This document shows positions 476-12,694 of a stretch of 64,000 bases of DNA, in pieces. This stretch comes from Poseidonibacter lekithochrous (GTDB lineage Bacteria; Campylobacterota; Campylobacteria; Campylobacterales; Arcobacteraceae). The position numbers were made by a program, and so were the translations under genes. The stretch is from positions 1-64,000 of the forward strand of contig NZ_JAHKQT010000038.1 in assembly GCF_018861145.1 (NCBI RefSeq), in the 5' to 3' direction. The notes beneath the pieces are model-generated. The model worked only from the letters and a program-made list of their open reading frames with translations. It did not search any database and had not been told where the DNA came from. Within the stretch, counting starts at the first letter, position 1, and the number at the start of each line of letters is the position of its first letter.

Positions 476-910
476 TTAATAGTCAGTAAGACGTATAACA
501 AATACGGAACAACCTGCATGACGAATAACTCTTTCTGCTGTGCTACTTATAAAATAACTATGTAATCCTGGCTTTGTTGCCATCATTACAATGGCATCAG
601 CATTTATTTTCTTTCCTGTTTCAAGTATTTCTTGATGTGCTGATCCATCTTTTACCATTAATGTTATTTTGTCTAATGGTAAAGAATGTTCTTTTATAAT
701 TTCTTTTAATTTATCTAATGCGACATGGTCATAATTAGTTTGTGTATTATCATCTAAAATAGGATATACCGAACCATGCGAACGATTTTGATTAACATAT
801 AATAATGTAATCTTCCCATCATCATCTAGTACTTCAAAGGCACCTTTGAATAATTTCTTATGATTCTTTGTATACTCTAAATGAATAGGTACTAAAATAT
901 TTTTAAACAT
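476..910 (-). CDS. Universal stress protein (UspA family)
   Basis: 144 aa, a normal length for a single-domain UspA. It opens with MFKNILVPI and ends with the nucleotide-binding signature region SSTAERVIRHAGCSVFVIR, where the G/S-rich loop that contacts ATP phosphates sits. It lies 12 nt after the TRAP large permease gene and before the aldehyde dehydrogenase, so it is almost certainly co-transcribed. In Halomonas the UspA-type protein TeaD sits beside the TeaABC ectoine TRAP transporter and modulates it. A similar role here is inference from position only. Confidence 0.9.
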   Translation of the reverse strand: MFKNILVPIHLEYTKNHKKLFKGAFEVLDDDGKITLLYVNQNRSHGSVYPILDDNTQTNYDHVALDKLKEIIKEHSLPLDKITLMVKDGSAHQEILETGKKINADAIVMMATKPGLHSYFISSTAERVIRHAGCSVFVIRLTDY

Positions 911-922
911 TTATTATCTCCT

Positions 923-2245
923 TTATCCCATGACTAAGTTTGGTAACCATAGAACAATTTCTGGGAAAATCATACAAGTAATTAATACTACTAAATTTAC
1001 TAAAATAAAAGGAGTAACTGACTTATAGATTTCTCCCATTCCAACATCTGGTGGCGCGATACCTTTTAAGTAAAACAGTGCAAAACCATAAGGTGGAGTT
1101 TGTACTGCGATTAAAATATTAATAATCATTAATACCCCAAACCAAATTGGATCATAACCAAGAGCAACTGCAATTGGTGTAAATAATGGTGCACACATTA
1201 ATACAATAATAAATTCATCAATAATAAATCCTAAGAACAACATGATAAGTTGAAACATAAGAATAATCATAATTGGTGGTAACTCTAATCCATGTGTAAA
1301 GTCTGCAATCATACCTTGAATCCCCATTAATAAATGGTAATTGCTAAATACAGAAGCTCCTAAAATAATCCACATTGCAACACTAACAAGTGCTGCTGTT
1401 TGGAAACCAACTAATCTAAACATATCAAGTTTAAAACGTTTAAAGAAGATAGCAAGAAGAATAGCTCCGGCAACTCCTAATGCACCAGATTCAGTTGGTG
1501 TTGCAATACCTGAAATAATACTTCCTAAAACAACAAAAATTAATCCAATAGCAAAAAAACCATCTCTTGCAATTTTAAATTTCTCTTTTTTAGTAAGTTC
1601 TGGTAAAGTCAGATTTTCACTAAGAAGTGGCGCTTTTTCTGGTTTTAATTTTGTACTAATTACAATATAAGTAATTAATAAAATAATTGTAAATACAGCT
1701 GGTACCATTGCTCCTAAGAACATACGTCCAACAGAATTTTGAGTTGAAGCTGCAAACATAATCATAGGAATACTTGGAGGTATTAAAATACCTAGTGCTC
1801 CTCCTGACATAATTGTTCCAAGGGCTAGTTTACGATCATAACCTGCATCTAACATAGGTTTTAACGCAATACTACCTGAGCTCATAATACCAGCACCAAT
1901 AATACCAACCATTGCTCCAATCATAGAACAAATAAAAACAACACTAATTGCTAGTGAACCACGGATTTTTCCAATTAGCATTTGGCTTGCACTAAACATA
2001 GCATCACCAATACCTGAATGGGTTAAAAGTTGTCCCATGTATATATACAATGGAATTGCAAGTAGGATAAAACTAAAATAAGTTGATTCTACAGTAGTTG
2101 GAATAACATTAAATATTCCATCTCCCCATGTAAAATAGCCAATTATCATGGCAATTCCACCTAGAGCTAAGCCTACAGGTGCACCTAAAGCGAAAAAGAT
2201 TAAAATACAAACTAATAAAACAACGGTAAGTAATTCAACACCCAT
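923..2245 (-). CDS. TRAP transporter large permease (DctM type)
   Basis: 440 aa, very hydrophobic, the usual length for a DctM subunit with about 12 membrane helices. Landmarks include IPLYIYMGQLLTHSGIGDAMF near residue 65 and GILIPPSIPMIMFA near 150, both typical of the DctM family. Its start overlaps the end of the small permease gene by 11 nt, so the two are translationally coupled. It forms the solute:Na+ symport channel fed by the periplasmic binding protein encoded upstream. The substrate is not fixed by this subunit; the neighbouring aminotransferase suggests an amino-group-bearing organic acid. Confidence 0.93.
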   Translation of the reverse strand: MGVELLTVVLLVCILIFFALGAPVGLALGGIAMIIGYFTWGDGIFNVIPTTVESTYFSFILLAIPLYIYMGQLLTHSGIGDAMFSASQMLIGKIRGSLAISVVFICSMIGAMVGIIGAGIMSSGSIALKPMLDAGYDRKLALGTIMSGGALGILIPPSIPMIMFAASTQNSVGRMFLGAMVPAVFTIILLITYIVISTKLKPEKAPLLSENLTLPELTKKEKFKIARDGFFAIGLIFVVLGSIISGIATPTESGALGVAGAILLAIFFKRFKLDMFRLVGFQTAALVSVAMWIILGASVFSNYHLLMGIQGMIADFTHGLELPPIMIILMFQLIMLFLGFIIDEFIIVLMCAPLFTPIAVALGYDPIWFGVLMIINILIAVQTPPYGFALFYLKGIAPPDVGMGEIYKSVTPFILVNLVVLITCMIFPEIVLWLPNLVMG

Positions 2246-2777
2246 CTGCTAACTCCTTTTCAAATAATTCATCACCTGTAATTAAGTGATAAAGTTCAGT
2301 AACAATATCTCTTGTTAGTTGCATTATAAATAATCCGCTAGCAATACACAACATAACCCAGAAGTGCCACATAGCAGGGGCCCATTCACTTTGACGTCTA
2401 AAATCAAATTCAATTGCTTCTTCAAACTTTCCAATACTTACATAAAATATAACCATAAGAAAGAAAATCCCTAATGAGAATGAGATAATATTAAAAATAT
2501 TTTTAACTTTTGGAGAAACTGTTAAGTAAAGTATATCTACATTGATATGTGCTCTTTTTTGTTGAGCATAAGCTCCACCTAAAGCAGATATATAACCAAA
2601 AAGAAATAAAGATAAGTCATATGCCCAAATTGTAGGGGCATCAAATATATATCGAGCTGCAACCTCGTATACAACAATAAAGGCCAGGACAGGCATCATA
2701 TATGATGCCGCCTTTCCTAAAAACATTATAATTTTGTCATTAATTGTACAAAATAGTTTTAGATTTTTTTTAAACAT
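2235..2777 (-). CDS. TRAP transporter small permease (DctQ type)
   Basis: 180 aa with four predicted membrane helices (about residues 20-40, 55-75, 95-115, 140-160). WAYDLSLFLFGYISALGGAYAQQ contains the DctQ family pattern in which the second helix is followed by the region with RAHINVDIL. The gene lies between the binding-protein gene (27 nt upstream) and the large permease gene (11 nt overlap), the standard P-Q-M order. Confidence 0.92.
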   Translation of the reverse strand: MFKKNLKLFCTINDKIIMFLGKAASYMMPVLAFIVVYEVAARYIFDAPTIWAYDLSLFLFGYISALGGAYAQQKRAHINVDILYLTVSPKVKNIFNIISFSLGIFFLMVIFYVSIGKFEEAIEFDFRRQSEWAPAMWHFWVMLCIASGLFIMQLTRDIVTELYHLITGDELFEKELADGC

Positions 2778-2803: not shown

Positions 2804-3832
2804 TTATTTTGTTTGTGTTTTTCTAAGAATATCAACAAGTTGTTTACTATATTTATCTTTAGAAGAATACTCATCCCATAACCCAGCACCTGCTTTTGCC
2901 CATGCAGCTTTATCAGCTTCTGAGGGTGTAGGTGACCATTGTAAACCTTTTGCAACCATTTGATCTACAGCTTCTTTTTCCCATTTTTTAGAATTTTCTA
3001 ATTGAGATTTTGCATGTGCAACTGTTGCATCATAAACTGCTTTTTGTAATTCAGGAGTTAGTTTTTTCCATGCAGATCTATTAACAACAATTGGTAAAAC
3101 TTGTGCACCTGCTAATGGTAATTTATACATATATTTAGCAACTTCAACATGATTTCCATCTCTATGGTCAATCATATTTGAACCAATAGAACCATCAATA
3201 ACACCAGTAGCTAAACTTGTATAGATTTCACTCCATGCCAAAGATACAGGAGAAGCACCTAAATTTCTTAAGAATTTACCATAAGCACCTGGAGCTCTAA
3301 TTTTTAGACCTTGAAAGTCTGCAACTGATTTAATAGGTTTTTTAGTAATAATATAAACAGCTGGTTGAATATATGGTTCTAACCATGCAAGTCCTTGAGA
3401 ACCATATGCTTTTTTAAGAACATCACCAAAACCTTGCTCATGGAAAAGTTTATGTAATGCTACTGCATCATCTGTACCACCAGGTAATCCAATTTCAACT
3501 ATACCTGCTGGTAATTCACCTGCATGCATTGATTGGAATGGCGCTGCCATAGAAATTAAACCAGATTTTGCAGCTCCTAATAAACCAGAAGTTCCAACAC
3601 CTTCACCTGAAAATAAAACTTGTACTTTAATCTTTCCATCTGTTCTTTTTTCTATGTCAGTAGCCAGGTCTTTATATAGTTCCCCAAATGCAGTACCTCT
3701 TCCATATAGGTTTGCAAATCTCCAGTTATGATCTGCAGCTTTTGCAGTATCAACCATTGTCATAACACTTAATAATGCAACGATTGATGTTGTCATTAAA
3801 CTTTTTTTGATATTAGTAAATAATTTTAACAT
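2804..3832 (-). CDS. TRAP transporter solute-binding protein (DctP family)
   Basis: 342 aa with a Sec signal peptide (basic N-terminus, hydrophobic stretch around residues 12-28, cleavage near AKA-ADHNW). The mature part has the DctP fold landmarks: GLKIRAPGAYGKFLRNLGASP near residue 175, including the conserved Arg that binds substrate carboxylate in this family, and the ATGVIDGSIGS segment near 210. It delivers substrate to the DctQM permease encoded just downstream. Substrate class is unknown; the gabT and aldehyde dehydrogenase genes around it make GABA, taurine or a related omega-amino acid candidates. Confidence 0.92.
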   Translation of the reverse strand: MLKLFTNIKKSLMTTSIVALLSVMTMVDTAKAADHNWRFANLYGRGTAFGELYKDLATDIEKRTDGKIKVQVLFSGEGVGTSGLLGAAKSGLISMAAPFQSMHAGELPAGIVEIGLPGGTDDAVALHKLFHEQGFGDVLKKAYGSQGLAWLEPYIQPAVYIITKKPIKSVADFQGLKIRAPGAYGKFLRNLGASPVSLAWSEIYTSLATGVIDGSIGSNMIDHRDGNHVEVAKYMYKLPLAGAQVLPIVVNRSAWKKLTPELQKAVYDATVAHAKSQLENSKKWEKEAVDQMVAKGLQWSPTPSEADKAAWAKAGAGLWDEYSSKDKYSKQLVDILRKTQTK

Positions 3833-3963: not shown

Positions 3964-5247
3964 TTATTTTTCTACTAAACTTGAAAAAAGGTCAGCAAAT
4001 TTGTCTAAACCTTCGTTCATGATGTCATCACTAATTGTAAGTGCTGGTAAGAATCTAATTACATTACTATTAAATCCACAAGATAATAAGATTAATCCAA
4101 ACTCAGCTGCTTTTGAAATAATTGCTTTTGTTAAATCTGCATTTGGTTTGTCTGGATTACCATCACACATTAATTCAATTGCAATCATTGCCCCTTTATT
4201 TCTTACATCAGAAATTAAATCTGGGAATTGAGATTGAAGCTCACTTAATCTTGAATTGAAAGTTTTTCCAATTTCATTTGAACGATTTATTAAATTTTCT
4301 TCTTCCATAATCTTTAAAACAGCTAATGCTGCAGCACAAGCTACTGGTGACCCACCGTATGTTCCACCTAATGCTCCAGGAATAGGTGCATCCATAATCT
4401 CTTGTTTTCCAACTACAGCAGAAAGAGGATATCCACCTGCAATACCTTTAGCCATAGTGATTAAATCTGGCTCAACACCTGAATATTCACAATTAAACAT
4501 TTTCCCAGTTCTACCAAAACCTGTTTGGATTTCATCTGCGATTAATACAATTCCATGCTCATCACATATTTTTCTTAGCTCTTGTAAAAGTTCTACTGGA
4601 GTTGAATAAAATCCACCTTCTCCTTGTACAGGTTCAATGATAATTGCGGCAACATCACTTGGTTCAATATCAACTTTAAATAAGTTTTTAATAGCTTTTA
4701 ATGAATCTTCAATAGTTGCACCATAAGAGCTAGCTGGAAAAGGAACATGATATATATCACCAGGGAATGGTCCAAATGCTTTTTTGTATGGAGCTATTTT
4801 TCCAGTAAGTCCCATTGTTAAATTTGTTCTACCATGAAAAGAGCCATTAAATGCAATAACTCCACGTCTGCCTGTATAAGCTTTTGCAATCTTTACACAA
4901 TTTTCAACAGCTTCAGCCCCTGTTGTTACAAAAATAGCTTTTTTTTCACTGTCCCCAGGAGCCAATTTTGTTAATTTTTCTGCTAATTCAACTGCTACCT
5001 CATAAGGATTTACCATTACACATGTATGAGAAAAATTCTCAATTTGTGCTTTTACTGCAGCAACAATCTTAGGATGGCTATGTCCTGTATTACACACAGC
5101 AATTCCTGTACCAAAATCAATGTATCTATTATCTTCTACATCCCATAATTCAGCGTTCTTTGCGTGCTTTACATAAATAGGATAAGCATTTCCTTGACCT
5201 CTTGCAAAAACTTTATTCTTTCTATTTTGTAACTCATGATTATTCAT
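3964..5247 (-). CDS. gabT: 4-aminobutyrate aminotransferase
   Basis: 427 aa PLP class-III aminotransferase, collinear with E. coli GabT/PuuE from end to end. Visible motifs: TTGAEAVENCVKIAKAYTGR (cofactor phosphate region), FNGSFHGRTNLTMGLTGK, EPVQGEGGF, LIADEIQTGFGRTG (Asp that holds the PLP pyridine nitrogen), and the PLP-binding lysine in TMAKGIAGG near residue 268. It transfers the amino group of GABA or a similar omega-amino acid to 2-oxoglutarate. It is the first gene of the group that continues with the TRAP transporter, UspA and aldehyde dehydrogenase after a 131-nt gap. A putative regulator site lies about 60 nt upstream of the start. Confidence 0.92.
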   Translation of the reverse strand: MNNHELQNRKNKVFARGQGNAYPIYVKHAKNAELWDVEDNRYIDFGTGIAVCNTGHSHPKIVAAVKAQIENFSHTCVMVNPYEVAVELAEKLTKLAPGDSEKKAIFVTTGAEAVENCVKIAKAYTGRRGVIAFNGSFHGRTNLTMGLTGKIAPYKKAFGPFPGDIYHVPFPASSYGATIEDSLKAIKNLFKVDIEPSDVAAIIIEPVQGEGGFYSTPVELLQELRKICDEHGIVLIADEIQTGFGRTGKMFNCEYSGVEPDLITMAKGIAGGYPLSAVVGKQEIMDAPIPGALGGTYGGSPVACAAALAVLKIMEEENLINRSNEIGKTFNSRLSELQSQFPDLISDVRNKGAMIAIELMCDGNPDKPNADLTKAIISKAAEFGLILLSCGFNSNVIRFLPALTISDDIMNEGLDKFADLFSSLVEK

Positions 5248-5283
5248 TTTTCCAACCTTTTTTGTATTTAAATATTTGCTTAA

Positions 5284-5325
5284 TTAAATTATTGCTGAAG
5301 ACAGTATTCAAATAGTATCATTATG
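5284..5325 (-). promoter_or_regulatory. Putative response-regulator operator and -10 region of gabT
   Basis: On the minus strand this reads CATAATGATACTATTTGAA, then TACTGTCTTC, then AATAATTTAA. ATACT occurs twice 11 nt apart, the helical spacing of OmpR-family half sites. The same 42-nt block recurs at 7988-8029 with 36 matches, again ~60 nt before a start codon, and its core recurs at 11825-11840. The AATAATTTAA portion is a likely -10 region 11 nt downstream of the repeat. Binding by the regulator at 11954-12694 is inferred. Confidence 0.55.
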
Positions 5326-5376
5326 GATTAATTTTATATGTTTTTAAATATTTATTATTAGAAGTAAAAGGGAGTT

Positions 5377-6210
5377 TTATTTTATGATTTGATGAAGTTT
5401 AGAACAATGTTCTAAAAGTTCATTTTTAGCATGTATATTATTTATGATATCTTGATGACTGTATATATGAGCATTATAAACGTATATATATAATTCATCA
5501 TTTTTTTGTAAGTAGTTTTTTTTTGCAAATTCACTATATGATGTTGCACCAGCTGCAATTAATATACCTTTAGCATCTTTAGCATTTTTCATAAATTGAG
5601 TTATTTCTTCTAATGGACCACAATCTTTTTGTGTATTAAACTGGTTTACCATCCAATCTTTTAGTTGAGTAAAGAAATAACTATAAGAATTAATTGCAGA
5701 AATTGTTCCATAGTTATGAATTTGATCATTCCTTTTTATAAAAGAAGAAATATGATATTCATTTAGAATTCCATTTTCTGTAAAGTTATCAATTTCAATA
5801 ATTTGACTTGAAATACCTTTTGTATTAATACCCCAGTTTTTTTTTGTGCTTAATTTACTTCCGTTTTGTATTCTAAGAGAACAATCATTAAATGCAGTAA
5901 AATATCTAGGTATTATATCAATAACTTTACCGTCTTCGTAAATAAAATTACAGATTAATGCAACTTCTGGTTCTGCTTGTATCTTATCTTTTTCTCTTTC
6001 ATGTGTTAATATGATTTTCTCAGAAATAGGATATGTTCCTAAAAAAGACTTATCTCCTTTTATATAAAAAGGAAATAAACCTTTTGGTGTATTTTCCCCT
6101 TCTGTTTGAATCTGTGTAAATTCATTTTCTTCCCCAGCTTCATTTAAATGATTAGGAAAATTACCAGCGACAGCAAATCCTAAATAATCTTTTAATTCTT
6201 CTATTAACAT
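5377..6210 (-). CDS. DUF5718-like conserved protein
   Basis: 277 aa soluble protein with no signal peptide. The N-terminus (LKDYLGFAVAGNFPNHLNEAGEE) matches what I recall of the DUF5718 family, seen in Campylobacterota and gammaproteobacteria; a function is not known to me. No catalytic motif stands out. It starts 13 nt after the glutamate-synthase-like gene and is probably in the same transcript, so a shared role in nitrogen or amino-acid metabolism is possible but unsupported by its own sequence. Confidence 0.6.
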   Translation of the reverse strand: MLIEELKDYLGFAVAGNFPNHLNEAGEENEFTQIQTEGENTPKGLFPFYIKGDKSFLGTYPISEKIILTHEREKDKIQAEPEVALICNFIYEDGKVIDIIPRYFTAFNDCSLRIQNGSKLSTKKNWGINTKGISSQIIEIDNFTENGILNEYHISSFIKRNDQIHNYGTISAINSYSYFFTQLKDWMVNQFNTQKDCGPLEEITQFMKNAKDAKGILIAAGATSYSEFAKKNYLQKNDELYIYVYNAHIYSHQDIINNIHAKNELLEHCSKLHQIIK

Positions 6211-6223
6211 TATGCTATCCTTA

Positions 6224-7954
6224 TTAGCTTATTTTATTTTTATAAGTATTTTCATCATTATTAAAAGAACCTTGTTTGTTAAAAACTCTTCTCTCAAATA
6301 CGCTTTCCATATCATCATAAATAATTGAATCTTTATCTAAAAAAATTAATTTTTCTTTATCTAGTTCATTTACATTTTTTAATCCCATAACTGCCAATAA
6401 ACTTTTCATACTTTTTAAAATATTATTATGGTAATTTTTAATGAAGTCTGAATGCTTTTTAACAAAATAATGCTTTCTCTTTTTAATATCTTGTGTAGCT
6501 AAACCAACTGGACATTGATGTTTTCCTGCACCAGAACAATATCTTGCTCTTATACACCCAGCACTCATCATAAAACCACGTGCAATTTGCACAAAATCTG
6601 CTCCAATACATAATGTAATAACTACGTCATCAGGTGTTAATATTTTTCCACTAGCAGAAATTTTCACTTTATCTCTTACACCAAAATCCTTAAGAACTTT
6701 ATCAACTAAATATAAAGCATCACGAATATCCATACCAATTCTTTCCATCATATCTAAAGGTGCAGTAGCACTTCCACCACTCCCTCCATCAAGAGAAATA
6801 TAATCTGGATATGGTAGATTTAAAGAGACTCTTCTTTTTATTTCCTTTACAATAGGCACGATATTATCATAATCAGAGATAACAATTTTTATACCAACAG
6901 GTTTCCCTGATGCCTCTTGTAGTTCTCCTATAAAATCAAATAATTCTTCATTTGAATTTGCATATGGAAATCTATTTGGAGAAAATGCATCTTTATTAAC
7001 TTCAATATTTCTATAATAAGCAATAGCTGGTGTGACTTTTTCAGCAATTAATTTTCCACCGGTTTGTTTTGCTCCCTGAGCAATTTTAATTTCAGTCATA
7101 CGGCAAAAGGCCATTTGTTTTTTGTATCGTTCCTTATCAAACTTTCCATCTTTAGTTCTAACCCCATATAATCCTGAACTAATTTGCAAAATTATGTCAG
7201 CCATATCTTCTGGAACATCTTGAGGAAAACTTTCTATAGGAACATCCCAATTAGGTCTATAAAAACAGTCTTTTTCTTTATTAAATATATAAGTATCTGC
7301 TTCTAAATCACCTTTAAATACAGATTTTCTATAAAATTCAATTGCTACTGGTGTATTAAGTAATGATTTTGATAATTTAAATAACCATTCTTGAAAAGGA
7401 GTTCCTTTTACTTCTTTCATATATATAGGATCATAGTTAGTATGAGTTACAAAAAAGTTTGATGTTAATCCACCTTCTCCTGAATTAATTGGGAAATTTC
7501 CTCCTTTTGCACCATAAACAAAGGCTCTAGTTCCTTCTGGAGAAATTGAACCATCGCTCATAGGTCCTCTTCCTATAATTGAATTTGCAAAAAAAGGTTT
7601 TTCCCTATTTTCACCAAAAGTAACTGAAAAGTCATTATCAACTTCATCGTCATTTAAAACAATATTTGTGTGTTTTAACATAAGTTTTGGTTTTGGCAAA
7701 GGTTGAGATGGTGAAAAAGAGGAATAATTAACTTTATCCCTTGATGCAGCATAAACCCAATCTAATTTATCCATTGATTCATAAAACTTTTCATCACCAA
7801 AATACTGTCTAAAAGGTTCTCTGAACTCTTGAAAAATAAATCTAAGTCTTCCTATAATTGGATAATTGACCAAAATTTGATGTGTTCTTTGTACATATTT
7901 ATCGTGAAAATACCATGCAAATATACCTACTAAAAAAACTAATAACATTTCCAT
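6224..7954 (-). CDS. Membrane-anchored FMN-binding glutamate synthase-like oxidoreductase
   Basis: 576 aa. An N-terminal hydrophobic helix (residues ~2-17) is followed by a GltB2-type FMN barrel. SLDGGSGGSATAPLDMMERIG and IARGFMMSAGCIRARYC carry the FMN/2-oxoglutarate site residues. Three cysteines, in CIRARYCSGAGKHQCP, correspond to the [3Fe-4S] ligands of glutamate synthase, but the second and third are separated by seven residues rather than the four of classical GltB. There is no glutaminase (GATase) domain, as in other stand-alone proteins of this family. The physiological reaction of these stand-alone proteins is not established. It shares an upstream motif with gabT. Confidence 0.85.
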   Translation of the reverse strand: MEMLLVFLVGIFAWYFHDKYVQRTHQILVNYPIIGRLRFIFQEFREPFRQYFGDEKFYESMDKLDWVYAASRDKVNYSSFSPSQPLPKPKLMLKHTNIVLNDDEVDNDFSVTFGENREKPFFANSIIGRGPMSDGSISPEGTRAFVYGAKGGNFPINSGEGGLTSNFFVTHTNYDPIYMKEVKGTPFQEWLFKLSKSLLNTPVAIEFYRKSVFKGDLEADTYIFNKEKDCFYRPNWDVPIESFPQDVPEDMADIILQISSGLYGVRTKDGKFDKERYKKQMAFCRMTEIKIAQGAKQTGGKLIAEKVTPAIAYYRNIEVNKDAFSPNRFPYANSNEELFDFIGELQEASGKPVGIKIVISDYDNIVPIVKEIKRRVSLNLPYPDYISLDGGSGGSATAPLDMMERIGMDIRDALYLVDKVLKDFGVRDKVKISASGKILTPDDVVITLCIGADFVQIARGFMMSAGCIRARYCSGAGKHQCPVGLATQDIKKRKHYFVKKHSDFIKNYHNNILKSMKSLLAVMGLKNVNELDKEKLIFLDKDSIIYDDMESVFERRVFNKQGSFNNDENTYKNKIS

Positions 7955-7987
7955 ATAAAAATCCTATATTTTCTATCTTCTTCTTTA

Positions 7988-8029
7988 TTAAATTATTACA
8001 GAAGAATGTATTGAAAAAGTATCATTATG
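7988..8029 (-). promoter_or_regulatory. Putative response-regulator operator upstream of the glutamate synthase-like gene
   Basis: Minus strand: CATAATGATACTTTTTCAA, then TACATTCTTC, then AATAATTTAA. It is the second copy of the block found at 5284-5325. The core on the plus strand differs at 2 of 22 positions and the -10-like AATAATTTAA is identical, at the same 11-nt distance. It lies ~58 nt upstream of the ATG at 7954. Confidence 0.55.
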
Positions 8030-8088
8030 CTTTGTTTTAATGGAAATATTAATAATTAAGAGGAGTAAATAATTATAAGTTGCTTATA

Positions 8089-10563
8089 TTAGATATTAAT
8101 AGGAATATGAATACAAAAAGTAACTCCATTTGGGATATTTTGTACACTTAATTGACCTTGCATATTTTGTTCAATAATCATTTTACTCATATATAAACCA
8201 AGGCCAGTACCATTATAATTATTCTTTGTTGTAAAATAAGGTTCAAATATTTTGTTGATGATAGCTTCATTAATTCCTCCTGCATTATCGGAGATTGATA
8301 TTTGAATGTCATTTTTATTTTTTTTAGTTTCTATGATAATATTTGGATTTTTAACTTTTGTTTCTAAAAAAGCATCTTTCGAATTGGTAATAATATTTAA
8401 AAAAACTTGTGAAAGTTCACTTTCAAATCCATAGATAATTACGTCATCTGAAATTATAACTTCGATTTTTATACTATTACTTTTGAAACTGTCATTTATA
8501 AGAAAAATAGTTTGTTGAAGAGCTTTTTCTATTGAAAAAGGATGCATCTCTTTATTAGGTTTAAAAAAGTCTCTGAAGTCATTAATAGTTTGAGACATTT
8601 TTTCTGTAAGTGCATTACTAAGAATTCTTTGTTTTTCTAAATACTCTTTATCAAGTTTTTCAAGAGAATATCTCAGATGTATATTTTGAACAATTGTACT
8701 TAATGCACTTAATGGTTGTCTCCATTGATGAGCAATCATACTAATCATTTCTCCCATTTCGGCAAGTTTTGATTGTTGGATTAATATTTGTTCTTGTTTT
8801 TTTCTATTATTAATTTCTACTTTTATTCTTGTATCTAATGTATTATTTAAATGTTCAAGTTCGTGAGTTTTAATCTTAAGTTTTTTATTTGAAAGTTCTA
8901 ATTCTTGAGTTCTAATCTGTACCTTTCTTTCTAAGGTACTATTTAAAGTTTCAATTTCATCTTTTGCTTTTGTTAATTTTCTAATATATCTACGTTGCAT
9001 CATATATGTATATAAAATTATTAATAAAATAATAATAAATGATGCAAGAATTTTCCAAAAGAGGTTATAGTCAAAGATTTTTTCTAATTTTACAGGTACC
9101 CAATCATTCATAATTTTTTGTCTAAGTTCATCACTTATAGATGATACTATTTTATCAAATATATTTAAAAGTATAGGATCGTCATTTCTTACCCCTACAG
9201 CTAATTCCCATTGATTCTCAAATTTACCTGATATTTGTAAGCTTCCATAAAACTCTTCTTGAAAAGCATAAGCTACGTTAAGATGTGTTGTAACTTGTCC
9301 AAAAAGCTCTCCTCTTTCAACTTTTTTTAAACCAACACGTAAGTGTTCTTGATCTATTACATCAATATTAGGATAATTCTTTCTAATTTTTTCATTGTAC
9401 GCAAAGTTTTTTTGAATACCTATTTTTTTATCTTTTAAAGTCTTTAAGTCACTAATAAAAGTTACAGTTCTTTTTGTAACTAAAACTAAAGGTGCTGTTA
9501 TATATGCTTTTGTAAAATTCATATATTTTCGTCTTTTTTCAGTATCCATGACTAAAGAGAGAATATCACATTTTCTATTTCTTACATATTCTAAGGATTG
9601 TGTCCAATCTTTTGTTTCTACAAGGTTTATAGGAATTCCAACTTTTTTCTGAAAATCTTTCATATAATCAGCAACAATACCAACATGTTTATGATTTTCT
9701 ATTTTTTCATAAGGCATCCAATCTGGATCAACACACATATTTATACTTACTTTGTTTTTTAAATAATTTAATTCTTTTTTAGTAAGTTTTAAAGGTAAAA
9801 TTGCTAAATCCTTTAAAAACCATTTATCAAAAAGTACTTTCTCTTCTTTTACGGATATTGAATTTAAGCCTTTTTCTAAAATTGATTGTAAATGTGTTTT
9901 TTCTTTATTTATAAAAAAAGATAAATTTGAAGGTTCAAAATTAATTAGAGGCATTGCTTTTAAATCAATAATTAAATTATCTTCTAAGTATTTTTGAATA
10001 ATAATTGGAGAAGCTATAAAAGCATCAACACTTCCTTCTAAAAGCTTTTCTACAGATTCTTGAATACTTTCTGTTTGAATGATTTTAATTTCATAATCTT
10101 TATTCTTTAATTTGAAGGTTTCATCTTCTTCTGTGATAATTGCAACTTTTTTATCTTTTAAATCTTGAAGAGAGTGGATATCATTTTGTTCTTTTTTTAC
10201 AAATAAGATTTTTTTGATTTGTAAAATTTCAGAAGAATATACCCCATAATTATTTTTTATTCTTGAATTATTTACTACAGGTACTACATCAATTTCGCCA
10301 TTTTCAAAAGCAAATCCTATATTACCTTGGTTAAGATCAACAGTTTTAGTTTTAATTTGAAATTTTTTTATAATAAGTTCTAGTACATCGATTGCAAAAC
10401 CATCTCTTTCATAATCTTTATTTAGAAAGCTTAATGGATACAAATCTGTAACACCAACTTTCATACTATTATTCTTTATCCATTCTTTCTCTTCTTTACT
10501 TAAGATTGATGAATCTGCAAATAATGTACCAAAAAAGATAATAAATAAAACAAAAAACTTCAA
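8089..10563 (-). CDS. Sensor histidine kinase with two periplasmic SBP_bac_3 domains
   Basis: 824 aa. After a signal peptide (MKFFVLFIIFFGTLFA) come two tandem solute-binding domains of the amino-acid-binding type (about residues 20-255 and 265-490; the second contains CVDPDWMPYE and LVETKDWTQSLEYVR). One membrane helix follows near 500-520, then a coiled coil to ~600, the H-box SMIAHQWRQPLSAL with the phosphorylated His near 612, and a C-terminal ATPase with ISDNAGGI and GTGLGLYMSK. There is no HAMP domain. It follows the hybrid kinase gene by 27 nt on the same strand. The ligand is probably a small polar metabolite such as an amino acid; the exact one is unknown. Confidence 0.92.
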   Translation of the reverse strand: MKFFVLFIIFFGTLFADSSILSKEEKEWIKNNSMKVGVTDLYPLSFLNKDYERDGFAIDVLELIIKKFQIKTKTVDLNQGNIGFAFENGEIDVVPVVNNSRIKNNYGVYSSEILQIKKILFVKKEQNDIHSLQDLKDKKVAIITEEDETFKLKNKDYEIKIIQTESIQESVEKLLEGSVDAFIASPIIIQKYLEDNLIIDLKAMPLINFEPSNLSFFINKEKTHLQSILEKGLNSISVKEEKVLFDKWFLKDLAILPLKLTKKELNYLKNKVSINMCVDPDWMPYEKIENHKHVGIVADYMKDFQKKVGIPINLVETKDWTQSLEYVRNRKCDILSLVMDTEKRRKYMNFTKAYITAPLVLVTKRTVTFISDLKTLKDKKIGIQKNFAYNEKIRKNYPNIDVIDQEHLRVGLKKVERGELFGQVTTHLNVAYAFQEEFYGSLQISGKFENQWELAVGVRNDDPILLNIFDKIVSSISDELRQKIMNDWVPVKLEKIFDYNLFWKILASFIIILLIILYTYMMQRRYIRKLTKAKDEIETLNSTLERKVQIRTQELELSNKKLKIKTHELEHLNNTLDTRIKVEINNRKKQEQILIQQSKLAEMGEMISMIAHQWRQPLSALSTIVQNIHLRYSLEKLDKEYLEKQRILSNALTEKMSQTINDFRDFFKPNKEMHPFSIEKALQQTIFLINDSFKSNSIKIEVIISDDVIIYGFESELSQVFLNIITNSKDAFLETKVKNPNIIIETKKNKNDIQISISDNAGGINEAIINKIFEPYFTTKNNYNGTGLGLYMSKMIIEQNMQGQLSVQNIPNGVTFCIHIPINI

Positions 10564-10590
10564 ATAATAACTCCAAATATCTTTATAAGA

Positions 10591-11784
10591 TTATATCATA
10601 GAATGAAGTATTATTGAAAAACAAATACCATCATTAACATTTGAGGCAAAGATGCTTCCTCTATGATTTTTTTCAACTATGATTTTTGACATATAAAGAC
10701 CTATTCCTGTACCATTCTTTTCTTTTTTTGTTGAAAAGTAGGGTTCAAATATAATATTGAGTTTATCATCTTCAATTCCTCCTCCATTATCATATATATC
10801 TATTTTAATTGTATCTTCTAAATCTTCTGTTTTAATTTCAATTTTAGGATTTTCTGTCTCTTTTTCAACAAACTTATCTTGTGCATTTTTTAATATATTT
10901 ATAAGTACATGAATAATCTCATTTTCATAAATATCAATTTGTTTTTTACTTTTAAGATCTAGAATAACTTGAATATTGTTTGATTGTAAATCTTTTTGAA
11001 TTATTTTTAATGTATGTTGAATTGAATTTTGAATATTTGTATTAACAGATATCTTATCTGTTTTAAAAAAGTTTCTAAAATCATTTATTGTTGTAGTTAG
11101 ATTTTGTACATAAAATTCAATTTCATCAAGTTTCTTACTAAAAAAATAAGATTGTTGCTCTCTACCTTCTTTTGTCTCTAAATCAAATTCTTCTCTGAGT
11201 AATTTATATTTTAAATTAAAAGATGCCGTTCCTATTGAGGCTAAGGGCTGTCTCCATTGATGAGCTATCATATTTATCATTTCACCCATTGCTGCAAATC
11301 TAGATTGCGTTTCGATAATATGTTGCTTTTCTTCATTTTTTTGGATTTCTATTTCTAGTTTTTTATTTTTTTCTAATAGCTCTTCTTTTAATACTTTTGC
11401 TTCAATTGCTTTGATTATATTTTTTTCTAATTTATATATGTCAATAGGTTTTAATACATAATCATTAATATTATATTCTATGGATTGCATAAGAAAGTTT
11501 GTTTCTTGATGAGCTGTTGTAATAATTATAGGAATATATTCATCTAGTTCTCTGATTTTTTCAATCATGCCTAATCCATCTAATTCTGGCATTTTTATAT
11601 CAGTTAAAATTAGATCAATACTTTCCCTGTTAGATTGGAAAAGAGATAAACCTTCTTGACCATTCTTTGCACAAATTACATTTATACCAAAAAGAATTAG
11701 TGTTTCTGTTATTCCTTCTTGTATTACCGATTCATCTTCTGCATACAGAACAGTTATATTTTTAAGAATTTGTTTATCCATCAT
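10591..11784 (-). CDS. Receiver-histidine kinase hybrid without membrane domain
   Basis: 397 aa, cytoplasmic. An N-terminal receiver domain (residues ~8-125) has the acidic pair in LYAEDES, the phosphoacceptor Asp in LILTDIKMPELDG near 58 and the conserved Lys in YVLKPIDIYKLE. A short coiled coil leads to the H-box NMIAHQWRQPLASIG (His near 175) and an ATPase domain ending with DIYDNGGGIEDD and GTGIGLYMSK. A receiver placed before a kinase suggests that it relays or integrates signals, probably from the 824-aa sensor encoded 27 nt downstream. It is divergent from the response regulator gene. Confidence 0.92.
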   Translation of the reverse strand: MMDKQILKNITVLYAEDESVIQEGITETLILFGINVICAKNGQEGLSLFQSNRESIDLILTDIKMPELDGLGMIEKIRELDEYIPIIITTAHQETNFLMQSIEYNINDYVLKPIDIYKLEKNIIKAIEAKVLKEELLEKNKKLEIEIQKNEEKQHIIETQSRFAAMGEMINMIAHQWRQPLASIGTASFNLKYKLLREEFDLETKEGREQQSYFFSKKLDEIEFYVQNLTTTINDFRNFFKTDKISVNTNIQNSIQHTLKIIQKDLQSNNIQVILDLKSKKQIDIYENEIIHVLINILKNAQDKFVEKETENPKIEIKTEDLEDTIKIDIYDNGGGIEDDKLNIIFEPYFSTKKEKNGTGIGLYMSKIIVEKNHRGSIFASNVNDGICFSIILHSMI

Positions 11785-11803
11785 AATAATCTCTTTTGCT
11801 TTT

Positions 11804-11840
11804 TTTATATCATATCAATAAATAGCACTCAAATAGTATT
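11804..11840 (-). promoter_or_regulatory. Putative autoregulatory operator in the divergent kinase/regulator region
   Basis: On the minus strand AATACTATTTGAGTGCT (11825-11840) matches the core seen before gabT in 13 of 16 positions. It sits ~45 nt upstream of the hybrid-kinase start codon, with TATGATATAA as a possible -10. It also lies ~115 nt upstream of the divergent regulator gene, so it could serve both promoters. A more degenerate match than the other two copies. Confidence 0.42.
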
Positions 11841-11953
11841 CAATTCTATCATAATATTAATATATTTAAATAAATAAGTTATAGGATGTTTTAACAAGAT
11901 TTTTTATAGATTAATGTAAGAAACAAAATGCTAATATGATAAAAAGGATTCTA

Positions 11954-12694
11954 ATGGACTATGGCTTATTAAAAAAATATACTAAAAATTTAACTGTACT
12001 TTTAGTTGAAGATGACATAGATTTTAGAAAAGAATTCTCTGAATTACTGCAAGATATTTTTCCAAGTGTAACAGTTGCAATCGATGGATTAGATGGACTT
12101 AATAAATATAAACAATATCACAAAGATACAAATAAATATTATGATTTAATCATTTCAGATATAAAAATGCCAAATTATGATGGTGTAGAATTAATAGATG
12201 CCATTTATAAAATTAAAGAAGATCAAACAGTTGTAATTTTATCAGCACGGAGTGAATTTAATTATCTTTTACCTTTAGTTAATTTAGGGATACATCAATT
12301 TTTTACCAAACCTATAGACTATTCTAGTTTTTTGGATGATATATTTAAGTTATGTAATCAAATTTACAATAATAATTTAAATCATAATAATGATATTATA
12401 AAAATTGATGAGTTTTTAATCTGGGAAAAAAAGAATAAAAGATTACTTCAAAATAATAGTGAAATAGAATTAACGAAAAAAGAAATTATTTTTTTAGACA
12501 CAATATTAAGTAATAATGAAAAAATATGCACCGCAGATGAATTAATCAATGCTATTTGGTTCGAAGAATTTGATTTTAATGCAGATATTAAAAATCTCAA
12601 AAATATGATATCACGTTTACGAAAAAAAGTACCAAACTTATATATTAAAAATATTTATGGTATGGGATACAAGGCTGCATGTACATCAAAATAG
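11954..12694 (+). CDS. OmpR/PhoB-family response regulator
   Basis: 246 aa from the ATG at 11954, preferred over ATG 11936 because AAGGA ends 5 nt before it. The receiver domain has LLVEDDIDF (acidic pair), LIISDIKMPNYDG (phosphoacceptor Asp near residue 57), VVILSARSEF and FFTKPIDYSSF (Lys). The C-terminal winged helix runs from IELTKKEIIFLDTIL to LYIKNIYGMGYKA, with the recognition helix near DIKNLKNMISRLRKK. It is the likely output of the neighbouring kinases; no cognate pairing is proven. The stop at 12694 abuts a truncated Fic gene on the other strand. Confidence 0.92.
   Translation: MDYGLLKKYTKNLTVLLVEDDIDFRKEFSELLQDIFPSVTVAIDGLDGLNKYKQYHKDTNKYYDLIISDIKMPNYDGVELIDAIYKIKEDQTVVILSARSEFNYLLPLVNLGIHQFFTKPIDYSSFLDDIFKLCNQIYNNNLNHNNDIIKIDEFLIWEKKNKRLLQNNSEIELTKKEIIFLDTILSNNEKICTADELINAIWFEEFDFNADIKNLKNMISRLRKKVPNLYIKNIYGMGYKAACTSK

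Follow-up and report, generated by a model that had tools for sequence, protein, structure and literature searches.

Short blocks of similar sequence lie in front of two metabolic genes and a pair of sensor kinase genes in an Arcobacteraceae genome, and the question raised by this locus is whether they are operators of a single regulon and, if so, which protein reads them. The window is a 64-kb stretch of DNA that forms part of the 3.0-Mb genome of a marine Arcobacter relative, whose genus is also represented in the genome set by Poseidonibacter ostreae. The reading that we favour, with a probability of about 0.86, is that all three sites are operators of the response regulator encoded at 11954-12694, which would be the output of the adjacent solute-binding-protein (SBP) and hybrid kinases and would control an autoactivating regulon. 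The features concerned are collected in Table 1.

Table 1. Genes and putative regulatory elements of the cluster, with positions in the window.
Feature	Position	Strand	Domains, scores or sequence elements
Universal stress protein (usp), last gene of operon	476..910	-	Pfam Usp; same place in orthologous clusters
TRAP large permease DctM	923..2245	-	Pfam PF06808
TRAP small permease DctQ	2235..2777	-	Pfam PF04290
TRAP solute-binding protein DctP	2804..3832	-	Pfam PF03480
GabT-type class-III aminotransferase	3964..5247	-	TIGR00700 571 bits, cut-off 507
Putative operator/promoter of gabT-TRAP operon	5283..5324	-	TACT 5314-5317 and 5303-5306; -10 AATAAT 5288-5293
DUF5718 protein	5377..6210	-	Pfam PF18985
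FMN-dependent glutamate-synthase-like protein	6224..7954	-	Pfam Glu_synthase PF01645
Putative operator/promoter of glutamate-synthase-like/DUF5718 operon	7987..8028	-	TACT 8018-8021, TACA 8007-8010; -10 AATAAT 7992-7997
Membrane histidine kinase	8089..10563	-	Pfam SBP_bac_3 (two stretches) and HATPase_c; two family-3 solute-binding domains
Soluble hybrid protein, receiver then histidine-kinase ATPase	10591..11784	-	Pfam Response_reg and HATPase_c
Putative operator/promoter of kinase operon	11809..11838	-	TACT 11835-11838, TGCT 11824-11827; -10 TATGAT 11809-11814
OmpR/PhoB-family response regulator	11954..12694	+	Pfam Response_reg and Trans_reg_C
Predicted recognition helix of the regulator, IKNLKNMISRLRKK	12587..12628	+	Residues 218-231 counted from 11936

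When the regions upstream of gabT and of the glutamate-synthase-like gene are compared without gaps, their best 42-nt match has 36 of 42 nucleotides identical, as the original prediction had claimed, and the maximum among 100 shuffled pairs is 31. The core of this block had also been said to recur between the hybrid kinase and the regulator. A site is indeed present there, with the sequence ATACTATTTGA and then GTGCTATTTAT, but it is a weaker copy with an imperfect second half-site, TGCT in place of TACT. Common to the three window sites is an 11-bp direct repeat, TACTnTTTsAr-TACTnTyTT, followed at fixed spacing by a -10 hexamer. The second TACT or near-TACT lies 11 nt after the first in each case, and, counted from the first T of the upstream TACT, the -10-like hexamer always begins exactly 24 nt downstream, which bears out the proposed 11-nt repeat upstream of a -10 at all three promoters. 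The same 24-nt spacing is found in the aligned sites of relatives, and in the window the hexamer ends approximately 25-41 nt before the start codons. A direct repeat with a period of about 11 bp is consistent with an operator of the OmpR/PhoB type, and the layout, with half-site 1 at -35 and a fixed distance to the -10, is that of a PhoB-like promoter if the transcription start is placed from the -10.

A position weight matrix (PWM) was built from 30 sites in other species, with the window sequence left out. It scores the sites of gabT, the glutamate-synthase-like gene and the kinase operon at 38.2, 31.1 and 24.4 bits, which are ranks 1-3 in the window, and the next-best score in these 64 kb is 13.4 bits. 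The best scores in simulated controls are 14.4 bits among thirty 64-kb sequences and 12.1 bits in a 3-Mb sequence. The PWM was applied to the 64-kb window, and whole-genome scans were made by pattern. In the whole 3.0-Mb genome, matches to the pattern TACTNTTTSANTACTNTYTTNNNNNATAMT with zero or one mismatch are found only at gabT and the glutamate-synthase-like gene; an earlier pattern with a fixed AATTTAAT tail proved too strict. Further matches in this genome, on C41 and C43, were discarded because they lie inside genes. The shorter core ATACTNTTTSAATAC is not very rare, with 12 matches in the window at two mismatches against 4.3 expected, and the full architecture is therefore required for specificity.

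The genes from usp to the two kinases are all encoded on the minus strand, and the regulator gene is divergent from them on the plus strand. GabT scores above the curated cut-off for 4-aminobutyrate--2-oxoglutarate transaminase, and this activity is therefore the predicted one. The glutamate-synthase-like protein does not qualify as a glutamate synthase large subunit: a Pfam search for the amidotransferase and other domains found only PF01645, and the score against NF008730 is 76 bits with a cut-off of 1047. The DUF5718 gene is probably co-transcribed with the gene at 6224-7954; the two also adjoin in genome G036, and one gene lies between them in G060. Matches of DctP to solved structures were only with distant relatives, and no ligand was indicated by them. 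In some clusters (loci L068, L069 and L071) an additional dctP copy separates the kinase gene from gabT, and it is this copy that bears the operator. In G055, a gene for an iron-type alcohol dehydrogenase is located between dctM and usp (L142:4894-6027); such dehydrogenases of some clusters reached no curated cut-off. The genes of TeaABCD-type TRAP transporters are followed by a universal stress protein gene. The cluster described here shares this usp position after the TRAP genes, and differs in that GabT and a two-component system accompany them.

The regulator scores 66 bits for PF00072 and 47 bits for PF00486, both above cut-off, as expected for a member of the OmpR/PhoB family. Its reading frame is open from 11936, and the start at 11954 is favoured by its better ribosome site (AAGGA). 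The predicted phosphorylatable aspartate is D75 of a DIKMP motif, which is invariant in an 11-sequence alignment. An AlphaFold2 model places a helix at residues 218-231, the third of the winged-helix domain, in a block with pLDDT of about 61-80. No close paralog and no member of the paralogous clade described below was found in the same genome, where the second-best match has 32-33% identity, and the neighbouring regulator is therefore the natural reader of the sites. Just upstream of the regulator gene, at 11919-11936, there is a conserved block, TAAGAAACAAAATGNTAATAT, that recurs in at least six orthologous loci. It probably serves as a promoter, with an extended -10 (TGNTAATAT), for the regulator gene itself, and this promoter is probably constitutive.

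The comparison set contains 104 genomes of the family, of which 17, including that of the window, have an ortholog of the regulator; the orthologs in the 16 other genomes are 67-82% identical to it. Gene order is the same at most of these loci, with the glutamate-synthase-like gene variably present. Orthologous sites precede gabT or dctP in 13 other genomes, and the hybrid kinase gene is likewise preceded by one in 13. Of the 17 genomes with an ortholog, 9 have exact pattern matches, versus 0 of the 87 without. An ortholog of the TRAP binding protein is found in 13 of the 104 genomes, and all 13 have the regulator. With a PWM trained without any site from such promoters, the promoters of glutamate-synthase-like genes exceed 20 bits in 6 of 12 genomes that have the regulator versus 0 of 11 that do not. 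Conservation in related genomes, proposed at the outset as a check, is thus found in sites that recur with the orthologous regulator. A literature search found nothing on this regulon.

The regulon had been described as local. This holds in that one operator type is present at the promoters of the cluster, but it is not strictly so. The glutamate-synthase-like gene of G060 is located on a different contig, near its DUF5718 partner, and retains a site 106 nt upstream; the regulator would therefore act in trans beyond its neighbours. The PWM finds no site at the glutamate-synthase-like genes of G033 and G075, though the regulator is present, and this part of the regulon is therefore variable. 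In G087 and G088 the regulator and kinases are present, and neither a clear site nor a transporter cluster was found. Degenerate variants of the site (CTACTTTTNACGCACTTTTTANTGATATGAT) are found at the same promoter position of the glutamate-synthase-like genes of G001, G019 and G030 (L277, L279 and L284), of which G001 has no regulator ortholog. A chemoreceptor gene with an operator 43 nt upstream occurs in two species, G033 and G032 (L138:5331-7853 and L139:6514-9039). No regulator ortholog was found in G032, yet the site is there, and it is apparently a relic or read by something else.

The strongest indication of which protein reads the sites comes from covariation between the predicted recognition helix and the nucleotide before the second TACT. 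The helix NLKNxISRLR is accompanied by A or G at 31 of 32 sites, and the helix HLKSLIYRLR by C at 21 of 21, among them all target promoters of this sub-clade, with Fisher values that are descriptive and take no account of the relatedness of the species. The first class comprises seven orthologs, including that of the window, together with nearly all paralogs examined, allowing for small variants; ten orthologs form the second. Relatives with 39% identity in G087 and G088 have a different helix, SLKM. Within the HLKS clade, the operator base is switched at the kinase, gabT/dctP and glutamate-synthase-like promoters. This clade has a single origin (support 100/99), and the covariation therefore represents a single event, though one that extends across several separate promoters. 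In the model, the switched residues N220, N223 and S226 belong to the third helix of the winged-helix domain. In sequence alignment they correspond to V213, S216 and S219 of Mycobacterium tuberculosis PhoP, recognition-helix residues reported to contact DNA (PMC4832192), and two of the three correspond to PmrA V192 and H195, for which DNA contact is also reported (PMC4660055). A coordinated switch of helix and operator, in which the second half-site changed from (A/G)TACT to CTACT, is well supported. That helix and operators appear to have changed together strongly suggests that the neighbouring regulator reads the sites. The original proposal, in which a single operator type is recognized by the adjacent OmpR-family protein, hence gains support from conservation, genome-wide rarity, co-occurrence and covariation, and the autoregulated OmpR/PhoB-type regulon appears to be real.

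The architecture also suggests how such a regulon might operate. The inducing signal would be a ligand sensed by the kinases, probably a small solute resembling an amino acid. The 11-bp direct repeat, which spans approximately -36 to -15 relative to the start predicted from the -10, would then be occupied by two regulator subunits in head-to-tail arrangement, such that half-site 1 replaces a poor -35 element and the phosphorylated dimer brings sigma70-RNA polymerase to the -10 next to it. The targets activated would be the regulator's kinase operon, giving positive feedback, as well as the gabT-dctPQM-usp and glutamate-synthase-like/DUF5718 operons. Perhaps the substrate of the TRAP transporter serves as an amine donor of the GABA type. 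Direct repeats are the targets of OmpR/PhoB regulators, and the -35 element of PhoB and PmrA promoters is located within half-site 1 (PMC4660055), which by analogy makes activation from the -35 position probable.

Other explanations for these sites must be considered. The blocks might represent a general promoter feature, or chance similarity among AT-rich leaders, as the roughly threefold excess of the short core in the window could indicate. This is barely credible given that the full pattern finds its best matches in the 3-Mb genome at this cluster's own sites, that a simulated 3 Mb reaches 12 bits only, and that relatives without the regulator have no site at the orthologous gene. The genome-wide pattern scan likewise did not find the motif equally common at unrelated genes, the outcome that the original prediction had named as fatal to itself. 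Alternatively, the regulator might bind and repress, with the repeat over the -35 region blocking polymerase until the signal arrives. Although a position of about -36 to -15 is by itself compatible with steric blocking, we regard repression as unlikely, since the spacing from repeat to -10 is constant at every promoter and in every species and the -35 hexamers are poor. This last argument is not decisive, because promoters of Campylobacterota often have no clear -35. The PhoB and PmrA precedent, with half-site 1 at -35, also speaks for activation (PMC4660055).

It is quite unlikely, too, that the operators are real and are read by one or more other OmpR-type regulators, such as those of C15 or C25, alone or together. 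The C15 regulator, with the helix GLKNIIKRIRKK, is encoded beside TGATACTTTTATGATACTCCTAAGTTATATAAT, and a site of 21 bits is located near the C25 regulator. These C15 and C25 sites score 6.7 and 21 bits, in contrast to about 24-39 bits for the window sites; furthermore, the site, the regulator and the TRAP genes occur together in the genomes compared, and the operator base covaries with the helix of the ortholog. Both additional loci in this genome (L159 on C15 and L153 on C25) have a kinase and an OmpR regulator near TolC-like efflux genes, the C25 kinase being of the SBP type, and TACT-type direct repeats occur upstream of the tolC-like gene (C15) and of an adjacent lipoprotein gene (C25). 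This type of operator may be common to a wider regulator clade, and some cross-recognition of TACT repeats by other OmpR-type regulators is possible.

A reason for the helix switch can also be proposed. The family contains a paralogous regulator clade, at about 44-51% identity, with similar sites near its own genes and before chemoreceptors, which suggests a family-wide set of sensory regulons. At L143, L144 and L145, paralogous regulators are encoded near chemoreceptor-like genes that bear the ancestral ATACT operator. A paralog with the ancestral helix is held by 9 of the 10 HLKS genomes versus 0 of the 7 genomes with an NLKN ortholog, the exception being G019, which is 91% complete; as the species are related, these counts are not independent. 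Because of this distribution, one possibility is that N220H, N223S and S226Y arose once, together with an operator shift throughout the regulon, for insulation from the ancestral-type paralog that shares the cell. We offer this tentatively, at somewhat less than even odds. An ancestral reconstruction study of duplicated two-component systems (PMC9208753, eLife 2022) describes divergence of paralog specificity that leads to insulation within one cell. The likeness to those systems is a divergence of paralog specificity that would fit insulation; the difference is that the change here would lie in the DNA-reading helix and the operators, as judged from sequence only.

The pho box has an 11-bp period. 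The PhoB/pho box and PmrA box promoters resemble the sites described here in their tandem, head-to-tail half-sites with half-site 1 at -35 (PMC4660055), whereas the half-site here is TACTnTTT, the targets are those of a TRAP/aminotransferase cluster, and the system is known from its sequence. An 11-bp period is likewise shared with the operator of M. tuberculosis PhoP, in which 7-bp motifs are directly repeated with 4 bp between them (PMC4832192), although its motif is TCACAGC and both the regulator and the organism are distant.

With these findings, a motif spotted by eye becomes a defined regulon that can be tested, in a group for which few regulons have been mapped. The operator model predicts further targets, such as the chemoreceptor of G033, and could help to identify the transported compound. 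In addition, it provides a compact system for the study of specificity, with three residues, one base per half-site, several promoters and a paralog as control. If the insulation proposal is true, the helix switch would be a natural and complete record of the rewiring of a whole regulon for insulation at the level of DNA.
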